Below, piece after piece: positions 11,920 to 20,062 of a DNA stretch of 64,000 bases. How positions within the stretch are numbered: the first letter of the stretch is position 1; every line of letters starts with the position of its first letter. This DNA comes from Fuerstiella sp. (GTDB lineage: Bacteria > Planctomycetota > Planctomycetia > Planctomycetales > Planctomycetaceae). The position numbers were made by a program, and so were the translations under genes. The notes below the pieces were generated by a model. It was given only the letters and a program-made list of their open reading frames with translations, had not been told where the DNA came from and searched no databases. The stretch is from assembly GCA_022447225.1 (NCBI GenBank), contig JAKVAZ010000001.1, positions 465,824 to 529,823 of the forward strand, in the 5' to 3' direction.

Positions 11920-12171
11920 TCCGGACGTATCGCGATTGGTGCTCTGCACAAATTCTTCGATAGAACCGTTCGGACAGAATTACGGAAGCGCTGAATCCCG
12001 AATTCCAACCAGGGTACGCCGACACGACGGCCGTCTCCTGCATTCATGTTTTCGATTGGGTACTCGGCGATGAAACATAATATTCCGATGTGCCTTTCCC
12101 CGTCCTGTTTGCGACGTGGTTTGGCTTCCCGCCGTCTGTTGTCAGACGAGGTGACGGAAATTCTTTGTGCA

Positions 12172-13272
12172 ATGAACATCAGATCCTGTGTTGTTGGCTG
12201 GTGGGCGTTTCTTGTTGTCGCGATCATTTGTCAGTCCACCCAGGCACAACAAAATCCACATGGTCAGTTACCCGTGGGCAGATCTTCTGAACCGTATTTG
12301 TTTCTGCTTCGGGATCCGCTGGTCCATGTGCAGCTTGCACTGACCACGGACCAAAAATCGCGGTTGCAGACCATCAATGATCAGTTGGATGATTCACTGT
12401 GGCCCATGCGAAACCAGCCGCTGCAGCAGGTCAAAGCAAAGGCGCGAGTTTTAAAAACAAAGACCATGCAGCAGTTACAAAGAGTTTTGCGTCGCGATCA
12501 GATTCGGCGTCTGGATGAAATCGAAATGCGAATACTCGGGATGAGAGCGTTTTTACGTCCCGAGATTGTTCAGATGTTTGAAGTGAATCAGGAACAACAG
12601 GATTCCATCCGTGCAATCTTTTCGGAAACTCGTGAATCGGTGAAACAGTTGAGACTGAAATCACTGCAGGACAGCCTGAATCAGCATATTGAGGATGCTG
12701 TCCTGCAGTTGCGGATCTCGGAACAAATGAAAGTGCTTGCCGTTTTGAACGACCAGCAACGACAGAAATGGGAGACGTCACTGGGGTTACCCGTGGATTT
12801 GCGAAAGATCGGGCGAGTGAAATTTCGGGCGCCTGAATTTTTGGGACAGGGGGAGTGGCTCAACTCTCCTCCTTTGACCCGCCAGAAGCTTTCCGGAAAA
12901 GTCGTCGCCGTGTTTTTTTACGCCTATGGCTGAGTGAACTGCCATCGGAATTACCCTTGGTACAAGGGTTGGCAGAACACGTTTCAGCAGCAGGGTTTTA
13001 CGGCCCTGGGAATTCACACTCCTGAATCAACCGAAGAAAAGGATCTCGAATCTGTTCGGCAGCGGGCTGCCGAACAGCAATTGGACTTTCCGATTCTGGT
13101 TGACAATCAAAAACAGAACTGGGACGCCTGGGGGAACTCGATGTGGCCCAGCACCTATTTGATTGATAAACAGGGGTACGTGCGCTACTGGTGGTACGGG
13201 GAACTGAACTACCGGCAACAGGGTGTCCAAAAAATTTTGCGTCAGCGAATTGAGGAACTGCTGAGCGAATAA
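12172..13272 (+). CDS. Candidate selenoprotein: secreted thioredoxin-like (TlpA/redoxin) protein with UVNC motif
   Basis: The frame runs from ATG 12172 to TAA at 13270-13272 (366 residues) if the UGA at 12931-12933 is read as selenocysteine 254. Residues 1-25 are a signal peptide. About 30-215 is a helical region with LTTDQKSRLQ and LNDQQRQKWE repeats resembling Spy/LTXXQ periplasmic proteins. From about 235 a thioredoxin fold begins (GKVVAVFFYAYG), then U254-V-N-C257, NYPWYKGWQ, the FPILVDN strand and the WPSTYLIDKQGYVRYWWYG block around the cis-proline. UGA thus replaces the first cysteine of the redox motif. A hairpin of SECIS type lies 6-42 bases downstream. It would act as an exported thiol-disulfide oxidoreductase. 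The alternative is a nonsense mutation; the intact, conserved downstream frame and the hairpin argue against it. Confidence 0.8.
12939..12975 (+). promoter_or_regulatory. Bacterial SECIS-like hairpin
   Basis: Immediately after the in-frame UGA (12931-12933) the mRNA can fold as follows. The outer stem CTGCCA (12939-12944) pairs with TGGCAG (12970-12975). An internal loop follows, then the inner stem CCCTT (12954-12958) pairs with AAGGG (12964-12968). The apical loop is GGTAC (12959-12963). The loop starts 25 bases after the UGA and begins with G, as expected for the SelB-binding bSECIS, which has a conserved G in the first loop positions and a short set distance from the UGA. All pairs are Watson-Crick. 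Confidence 0.72.
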
Positions 13273-13801
13273 GCACGCAATGGCTGCGACGACCTGAAGC
13301 TTCGGTTATGTTCGTTTTTGTATCGGTAACCGTTGTGATTCCGGATCATACGACACTTGGCCCTCGGAAAAGTTCAGAGGTGTTTGCGGTGCCGTTTCAG
13401 CACGTGATGTATCCCGCAGGTTTGTTATACAGGTTGGGGTGGTCGCTTCTTTGGCAGCCACGTCGTTGCGCTGGTCACCCTTCAGATGGCCTTTCCGCCC
13501 GTACCTGTTGAACTGTTCGCAGCGGTCATTGCGGAAATAAATCTGACTTCGATGCTGTCGCAGGTCATATGACAGCGGTGGAATCTATAACGTGTGCCTG
13601 GTGAAAATGTCGGCAATGCGTCCACTGAGCCGGCACAACTGGCGAAGTTCGACTCCTGGAAGTCGCGCAGGATTGTTCTGTTCCCGCTGGAATCAGAGGT
13701 ACCTGCAACGATACGATCGTTGATCAGAAAACACCTCTATTGCCATCTGTCGAATCATGCCTCTGGATAATCGGCGTGACAAAGAAACTGGAGCTGTGGT
13801 C
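13273..13801. other. Intergenic gap
   Basis: About 530 bases after the selenoprotein gene. No reading frame here matches a family, and I see no RNA gene or strong hairpin. It should contain the promoter of the cyclase gene. Confidence 0.35.
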
Positions 13802-18634: not shown

Positions 18635-19828
18635 TTATCCCTGAGCCGGCAGGGTCAGTCGTTGCCACAGCATGACTTTGACGATTTGACGTGCCACTGC
18701 TTCGGCAACCGGAGGGACGACCGCGTTTCCATACTGTTTGTAGGCCCGGGTGTCTGACACAACCTGATTGTCGGCGTATTGCGGCGGGAATCCCATCAGC
18801 CGTGCGCTTTCCACCGGCATCAGTCGGCGTGGGTTTTTGCGTTTTTGCGGAATCAGGATCTCCGCGCCATCTTTGTAGTACCGGGCACTGAGTGTGCGGC
18901 TGATCCCGTTGCGATCTGCCAGGCCAAAGCCGAAACCATTGCCGCGGGCCGCATGCCGCTTTTTGTATTCCTGCAGGTAGTTCCACAGTTGGTCCGACAG
19001 TGTGTATTTGTCGGGCACTTTTGTCGAAGGTTCCAGAATGTCGCCAAACCGAGGCCTGGGAATATCGGGCGGGTCCGGAAATTCGAATGGTGGATCCTCA
19101 CCGTAGATGTCCTTTCGGAATCCCACGATAAAGATTCGTTCCCGATGTTGCGGCACGTAGCTGGCCGCATCGATGGTTTCATCAAAGACACGATACCCCA
19201 GTTGATCCAGGCGGTTGCAGATCGTCTGCCAGGTGTCACCCTTGTTATGGGACCGCAGATTTTTCACGTTTTCCAGCAGCAGAATTTCCGGTCGTTTCAT
19301 CTCGATGATGGTTGCCAGCTGAAAGAACAGGGTTCCCTGTGCTTTGTCTTTGAATCCGTGGTCGCGTCCGAGGCTCTTCTTTTTAGAGACACCGGCGATT
19401 GAAAACGGCTGACAGGGAAAACCGGCTGCGAGGACGTGATGTTTCGGGATCTGTGCGCCGGACGCAAAATCCCGAATGTCTTCATCAGGTTCGTCACCAA
19501 ACCAGGCCTTGTAAGTTTTTCGGGCATACGGATCGATTTCGCAGGAAAACACGCACCTGCCACCCGCCTGTTCCAGACCAATTCTTAACCCGCCGATTCC
19601 GGCGAAGAGATCAATGAATCGAAACGGAATCTGTCCATCCTGTGTTGATGTGCTGTCCGGAACAGCAGGTTCGTCAAACAGCGATGGTCCGTTTGACCGC
19701 TCCATCGCGTCCTCGATCAACGAAACCACGAACGCTTTCTGTGAAAGTCCGGTTCGTTCCGATGTGTGCCGAACCCATTTGTGAATCGGTTGAGGAACAC
19801 GGATATTAAGTTGAATCGTTTCTGTCAC
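18635..19828 (-). CDS. DNA (cytosine-5) methyltransferase with N-terminal ribbon-helix-helix-like segment
   Basis: A 397-residue C5-cytosine methyltransferase that transfers methyl from SAM to cytosine in a specific DNA site. Motif I is FIDLFAGIGGLRIGLEQAGG (about 71), motif IV is GFPCQPFSIAG with catalytic Cys139, motif VI is ENV (186-188), motif VIII is QHRERIF (about 227) and motif X is YKQYGNAVVPP near the end. Residues 1-45 (TIQLNIRVPQPIHKWVRHTS and on) look like an Arc/MetJ-type ribbon-helix-helix DNA-binding element. The GTG at 19828 is preferred because GGAGG lies a few bases upstream. No restriction enzyme gene adjoins it, so it is orphan in this window. The target sequence cannot be told. 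Confidence 0.93.
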   Translation of the reverse strand: MTETIQLNIRVPQPIHKWVRHTSERTGLSQKAFVVSLIEDAMERSNGPSLFDEPAVPDSTSTQDGQIPFRFIDLFAGIGGLRIGLEQAGGRCVFSCEIDPYARKTYKAWFGDEPDEDIRDFASGAQIPKHHVLAAGFPCQPFSIAGVSKKKSLGRDHGFKDKAQGTLFFQLATIIEMKRPEILLLENVKNLRSHNKGDTWQTICNRLDQLGYRVFDETIDAASYVPQHRERIFIVGFRKDIYGEDPPFEFPDPPDIPRPRFGDILEPSTKVPDKYTLSDQLWNYLQEYKKRHAARGNGFGFGLADRNGISRTLSARYYKDGAEILIPQKRKNPRRLMPVESARLMGFPPQYADNQVVSDTRAYKQYGNAVVPPVAEAVARQIVKVMLWQRLTLPAQG

Positions 19829-20042
19829 GGCATCCTCCGTCGAGTGAACCTGCCGGCATGCTAGCAAGTTGACCCGCCGGAGGAAGGCCTGGATGTTGTC
19901 TCTGCCGGACGGATGAAAAATCAGCTGAATTCGTAACGTCGGAGTGACTGATGCCATGTTGATCGGTGGCGTTGTTTCGCGGAGTGGCCTGCGGTGGACA
20001 GTCGATCTTTGCCGACCTGGATGCAAACAATCGTGTGCGTGT

Positions 20043-20062
20043 TTCGCCTGCAAAGAGGCGAA
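20043..20062. promoter_or_regulatory. Small inverted repeat in a divergent promoter region
   Basis: TTCGCCT (20043-20049) and AGGCGAA (20056-20062) form a perfect 7-bp repeat with a six-base spacer. It lies between the divergent methyltransferase and PLP-enzyme genes. It could be an operator or chance; nothing else supports it. Confidence 0.25.

Follow-up and report, generated by a model that had tools for sequence, protein, structure and literature searches.

Selenoproteins with a U-x-x-C motif in a thioredoxin fold have been described before. Table 1 of PMC13188914, in the part of that paper available, lists a Prx-like thiol:disulfide oxidoreductase (PF00578) and a redoxin family protein (PF08534), and UxxC proteins of both these kinds also appear in the available part of PMC9312934. 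For planctomycetes, the accessible excerpts of PMC4807772 report sel genes and several putative selenoproteins in strains P1 and P2 (candidates in its S9 Table). Among solved structures, the C-terminal domain of DipZ from Mycobacterium tuberculosis (2hyx, 5cyy) shares the redox fold of the protein described here and carries the motif C-I-N-C, but it has Cys at the place of the predicted selenocysteine (Sec) and is joined to other partner domains. The periplasmic Spy/LTXXQ proteins have LTxxQ-like repeat helices that our protein seems to share, a weak similarity; it is unlike them in that a single chain holds the repeat twice and continues into a thioredoxin domain.

The gene lies in a window of 64,000 nucleotides from a Fuerstiella genome, by which we mean the whole stretch of DNA analysed. 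On the sequence evidence assembled here, we consider it about 95% probable that positions 12172-13272 encode a selenoprotein in which the UGA at 12931-12933 specifies selenocysteine. The machinery, the codon exchange, the conservation of a hairpin, the domain layout and the predicted fold were computed. The window protein has the same Pfam domains and U-x-x-C motif as the PF00578/PF08534 families of PMC13188914, whose published representatives are WP_010940744.1 (Prx-like) and HEU0032618.1 (redoxin), and it agrees with the Prx-like UxxC family in domain and motif; the available part of that paper mentions no tandem Spy-like N-terminal domain for its UxxC families. An earlier sequence-only reading of the window, made without database searches, had taken Sec to be usual at this position in bacterial thioredoxin-like selenoproteins. 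Like P1 and P2 in the excerpts of PMC4807772, the organism is a planctomycete that has sel genes and more than one putative selenoprotein.

The redox part is thus of a known type, that of the thioredoxin-fold UxxC selenoproteins. Since PF00578 and redoxin members of this type have been published, any novelty would lie in the domain layout. The combination of a Spy-like with a Sec-thioredoxin domain may be new, as the sequence-only reading had suspected, and no description of the fusion was found in searchable text. No literature on selenoproteins with LTXXQ, or on LTXXQ with planctomycetes, turned up in a search that most subscription journals lie outside of, and nothing retrieved for selenocysteine with DipZ was judged related. 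The gene extends the selenoproteins of Planctomycetes by one well-supported subfamily.

Reading frame and gene

If the TGA is read as a residue, the frame codes for 366 amino acids with a single TGA (U254) and a final TAA. This TGA, the sole break, occupies the first position of the motif U-V-N-C within a thioredoxin domain of DipZ/ResA type. The following features were assigned:

12172..13272, plus strand: predicted selenoprotein CDS, 366 aa, Sec at residue 254, TAA stop
12172..12246, plus strand: likely signal peptide, residues 1-25, inferred from sequence; cleavage site by eye, helix 7-22 in the structure model
12931..12933, plus strand: UGA, predicted Sec codon, residue 254; TGA in 9 and TGC/TGT in 26 of the 35 homologues read
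12940..12942, plus strand: codon of the resolving Cys257, invariant across the 26 rows of alignment A1

Three ATG starts (12046, 12070 and 12172) were weighed, and 12172 is preferred because a signal-peptide-like stretch, recognised by eye, comes directly after it. The 112 codons 3′ of the TGA (12934-13269) match AhpC-TSA (PF00578) on their own with an E-value of 1.9e-9, which improves to 2.5e-14 for the whole read-through protein. The gene structure proposed in the sequence-only reading therefore stands: our translation agrees that the frame is broken only by this UGA, the 112 intact codons behind it do belong to a thioredoxin fold, and the UGA replaces the first redox cysteine while the second is kept, with Cys or TGA at the place of the UGA in the 35 homologues read.

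Ordinary gene callers stop selenoprotein genes at the UGA, and the mechanical ORF list of the window likewise ends the frame there. TGA is a normal stop codon in the window, terminating 19 of 36 long frames (11 end with TAA and 6 with TAG; these are mechanical stop-to-stop frames of at least 300 codons on both strands, not verified genes). Examples are a 3-keto-disaccharide hydrolase gene, checked by profile, and UbiD-like and dehydrogenase-like genes, named by eye. As 19 of the 36 end in TGA, a genome-wide reassignment of UGA is excluded. That the UGA is read as tryptophan, or passed by general suppression, is highly improbable given these stops, the tRNA-Sec of the genome and the 26 homologues without TGA, all of which have Cys and none Trp. 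Elsewhere in the window, a frame on the minus strand (18635-20053) resembles, by eye, a C5-type DNA cytosine methyltransferase.

Thioredoxin-like domain

12820..13269, plus strand: thioredoxin-like domain, residues 217-366, DipZ/ResA type, from profile and fold matches

Two Pfam families exceed their curated cut-offs, PF00578 with 53.7 bits (cut-off 26) and PF08534 with 32.9 bits (cut-off 26.6). The structure model of the whole protein has a mean pLDDT of 90.0. By sequence, DipZ is the nearest solved relative, and after it come SOQ1, YkuV, NHLRC2 and ResA. The match to DipZ is to its C-terminal part, with a profile E-value of 2.1e-41 and first rank in Foldseek (E 4.1e-13, 36% identity, rmsd 1.1); VIA-align puts DipZ and SOQ1 level (Z 22.8 and 23.4). 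The named NCBIfam subfamilies stay below their cut-offs (ResA 45.2 of 170 bits, DsbE 16.2 of 123.15, rhizobial TlpA 14 of 230). Among the eight NCBIfam families at an E-value of 1 or better none is named as a selenoprotein, and a deiodinase-family model reaches 0.023.

Homologues and the codon at residue 254

A search of 149 genomes, our own included, yielded 30 loci, and a collection of named genomes seven more. After removal of the duplicates L050 and L054, the 37 loci fetched left 35 distinct homologues, which represent the best matches; codons were left unread in strong matches without a locus (G035:C155 and G122) and in the weaker matches below them. At the place of residue 254, nine homologues have TGA, 26 have TGC or TGT, and none has another codon. 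TGA is carried by the window gene itself (L020) and by L021, L051, L052, L053, L056, L024, L026 and L049. Of these, L056 comes from the complete chromosome of Planctomycetes bacterium K23_9. L021 is from the same genus and 81% identical; its named copy, L050, is from Fuerstiella sp. ALOHA_ZT_14 and represents the same contig.

These data bear on the possibility that there are two genes, a helical protein that stops at the UGA and another product that restarts at GTG 12934. Both the window gene and L021 do have GTG, a possible start, as the codon after the UGA, but the other seven TGA genes have ATC or ATT there. According to the structure model, a restart product would be without the strands that precede residue 254 and without one of the two redox residues. 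Furthermore, the 26 Cys homologues pass the site in a single frame (contig ends truncate L041 and L055). We consider the two-gene arrangement very unlikely, and the selenoprotein remains the preferred reading.

An alignment of planctomycete homologues had been proposed as a check, and Cys or TGA was found in all 35 homologues read; the contrary signs named in the sequence-only reading, a sense codon of another kind or an end of the protein at this place, did not occur among them. This uniformity does not extend to more distant proteins. In a sample of the phylum, 45 of 392 genomes had matches with an E-value no higher than 1e-30. The listed match spans the helical domain as well in nine of the 45 and only the thioredoxin domain in the remainder. 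Three of those nine (L063-L065, 29-33% identity) possess the helical domain and lack Cys at the place corresponding to residue 254; L063 retains the second Cys, and in L064 a Cys is shifted by one place in the alignment. The C-x-x-C motif thus is broken in one distant branch. In G002, a 98% complete genome of the same genus, there is no close homologue (best E 1.7e-4, none at 1e-30).

Gene neighbourhood was compared for nine neighbours from the window across 14 loci with short stretches. Only the adjacent cyclase gene recurs, and only in L021/L050, so that context is kept just in the same-genus contig; none of the neighbours in the loci looked at suggests a partner.

Selection and switching between Sec and Cys

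Downstream of the UGA, dN/dS is 0.19 for the pair L020/L021 and 0.10 for L051/L052; dS is saturated in the third pair, for which the ratio is uncomputable. Purifying selection acts on this part of the gene. Chance or decay is unlikely because dN/dS is low and the TGA recurs in eight other genomes. A pseudogene or an assembly error, i.e. a nonsense mutation of the Cys codon, could be imagined since TGA is one base away from TGC and TGT and draft assemblies have errors. However, the same TGA is present in nine distinct genomes, dN/dS after it is low in both computable pairs, and selA and selD exceed their cut-offs in all nine genomes; this explanation has hardly any probability left.

The tree of the 35 proteins, computed with the active-site stretch excluded, requires five changes between Sec and Cys, four of which are forced by well supported branches. 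L022, a Cys form, is nested with good support in a group of five that is otherwise Sec, and selA in its genome scores 194 bits at best, short of the cut-off. This case likely is a change from Sec to Cys. With both forms and five switches, the family is a good test set for the gain and loss of Sec.

Selenocysteine machinery of the genome

The genes that the sequence-only reading had named as ones to look for (selA, selB, selD and the tRNA-Sec gene) were all found in the genome of the window (G000), each above its cut-off. The tRNA-Sec gene, at C8:279294-279385, scores 70.8 bits (cut-off 47), and ARAGORN calls it SeC(tca), with the anticodon tca. On contig C1, selB (356682-358535; 314.5 bits, cut-off 242.25) adjoins selA (358597-359937; 508.3 bits, cut-off 267.9), which is followed by a selD match (361202-361996; 227.2 bits, cut-off 125). 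The cluster (C1:356682-361996) ends about 104 kb before the start of the window at C1:465824. The selD match is within an open frame of 753 codons and may represent a fusion.

While tRNA-Sec and selB were searched in this genome only, selA and selD were compared between genomes. All nine TGA genomes have selA above the cut-off, compared to 11 of the 26 in the comparison set (p 0.004 by Fisher's test, relatedness ignored). This set includes G122, in which the codon is unread, and does not include the genome of L055; minus G122 the figure is 10 of 25. None of the nine TGA genomes is devoid of selA. For selD the numbers are nine of nine and 12 of 26. In four genomes (G143, G148, G149 and G150) an in-frame TGA lies within the selD match, and one of these, G148, has L043, a Cys form of our gene.

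Hairpin downstream of the UGA

12953..12969, plus strand: SECIS-like apical hairpin with a stem of 7 bp and a G-C pair closing the GUA loop, 26 nt past the UGA
12939..12975, plus strand: lower stem under the apical hairpin, 12939-12944 paired with 12970-12975; this form in the window gene and L021 only

According to Fig 2A of PMC13188914, in the part available, a bacterial SECIS element has a loop of 3-9 nt with a G in the first two positions and a stem of 4-16 bp, is 16-37 nt away from the UGA, and has an energy of at most -7.5 kcal/mol. These published rules, taken from that part and applied with a script of our own, are satisfied by the window gene with -8.0 kcal/mol, a 7 bp stem, a 3-nt loop and a distance of 26 nt. 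Eight of the nine TGA genes satisfy them, as do 99 of the 2675 TGA triplets on both strands of the window; none of the 26 Cys genes does. The exception, L049, fails narrowly on energy (-7.3 against -7.5). A model hairpin of equal or greater stability follows 79 of the 2675 window TGAs, the studied one included. The sequence-only reading had expected a SelB-binding hairpin close downstream of the UGA; a conserved SECIS-like hairpin lies there.

Comparison with synonymous recodings of the 57 nt from the codon onwards gave a mean folding z of -1.74 for the TGA genes and -0.12 for the Cys genes (Mann-Whitney p 1e-4, relatedness ignored). Taken singly, five of nine TGA genes and one of 26 Cys genes reach p <0.05, so four TGA genes miss this level. 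Against dinucleotide shuffles, the 40 nt that hold just the apical hairpin fold unexceptionally (z -0.27), and only longer stretches stand out, with z-values from -2.6 to -3.1. A search of 12000-13400 against Rfam returned three matches, all under the gathering score and none plausible.

Compensatory double changes occur at two of the seven stem pairs, in L024 and L049. As the changes are identical in both, they may reflect one event or two. Overall, 98.4% of the cells are paired, compared to 14-68% and no double changes in a control in which the partners were slid. The covariation score and the four double-changed cells were reached by none of 500 shuffles; two double-changed pairs likewise arose in 84 of the 500, and the count of pair types was matched or exceeded in all 500.

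The sequence P-W-Y, of which W-Y is coded by the loop, is present in all nine TGA proteins and in four of 26 Cys proteins (p 1e-5, relatedness ignored). This bias may indicate that the RNA hairpin constrains the protein sequence around the loop.

Helical N-terminal domain

12310..12558, plus strand: first copy of the Spy/LTXXQ-like helical repeat, residues 47-129; border by eye, from the model and hhalign of the halves
12559..12807, plus strand: second copy of the Spy/LTXXQ-like helical repeat, residues 130-212; border by eye, from Spy profile and fold matches

Residues 38-212, modelled separately, gave a pLDDT of 92.8. When the domain is split by eye into two halves, hhalign aligns one with the other at a probability of 96.1 and an E-value of 3.2e-9 for one comparison, and hence the domain looks like a tandem duplication. 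In a comparison of the N-terminal profile with the PDB, Spy (3oeo) ranks first with an E-value of 0.0072, and a Salmonella VirG-like protein is also listed. The Pfam family LTXXQ (PF07813) matches eight of 25 members at 0.01, the window protein not being one of them. Foldseek with the N-terminal model returned nothing at an E-value of 0.001 or better. VIA-align has Spy (Z 7.5, 75 aligned residues, rmsd 4.4), the VirG-like protein and CnrX (Z 7.2) on top, with ZraP at 5.3, although Z-values below 13 mean little for helical folds, where a common arrangement may suffice for a match. With moderate confidence, we consider the domain to be Spy-like in the sense of a distant relationship. The Spy-like domain of the sequence-only reading is upheld in this form, by profile and weakly by fold; the tandem duplication had gone unnoticed.

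In an alternative reading, which concerns the role of the domain only, the protein is a selenoprotein all the same, but its helical part is a structural spacer, an oligomerisation unit or a metal-binding module like those of CnrX and ZraP instead of a client binder; we regard the chances of this as about even. Both metal-binding proteins rank with Spy at Z-values that are weak for helical folds, and L049 has Sec in a frame of 168 codons, which is too short for the helical domain. A chaperone role is favoured by the profile search, which puts Spy first, and by the LTXXQ matches of the other family members.

Proposed mechanism

Thioredoxin-fold proteins with a C-x-x-C motif use the first Cys for the attack and the second to resolve, and Sec in the first place of the motif is the better nucleophile. 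We infer the insertion of Sec in the cell, the export of the protein, its redox direction (reductase or isomerase) and the binding of clients. SelB with Sec-tRNA-Sec, acting on the hairpin just past the codon, would decode the UGA as selenocysteine, and the signal peptide would export the product. Once in the periplasm, Sec254 as attacking selenol and Cys257 as resolving thiol would perform thiol-disulfide exchange, while the tandem Spy-like domain would probably bind clients or a partner. The function would then be the reduction or isomerisation of periplasmic disulfides, perhaps on held clients.

A more specific proposal, which we put forward tentatively and think rather unlikely to hold in full, is a periplasmic repair factor in a single chain. 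The two Spy-like copies would form a cradle, akin to a Spy dimer but built from one chain, that holds unfolded or misoxidised proteins while the Sec-thioredoxin domain reduces or reshuffles their disulfides. If true, this would be a selenium-dependent chaperone-isomerase. Client binding by the helical domain would link selenium to the folding of envelope proteins.

Other TGA-bearing redox genes

There are 18 AhpC-TSA matches in the genome, three of which have an in-frame TGA: the gene studied here and two others, both on the minus strand. L087 (G000:C6:285966-286337) has its TGA at TGG-U-TKEC and is presumably a peroxiredoxin; L101 (G000:C10:239561-239953) has it at LT-U-PPF and is what we take to be a deiodinase-like gene, both being named by their motifs. 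Neither has a folding-energy signal after the UGA. Deiodinase-like and peroxiredoxin selenoproteins are already listed in the available part of PMC13188914. L087 and L101 probably are the second and third selenoprotein of this genome.
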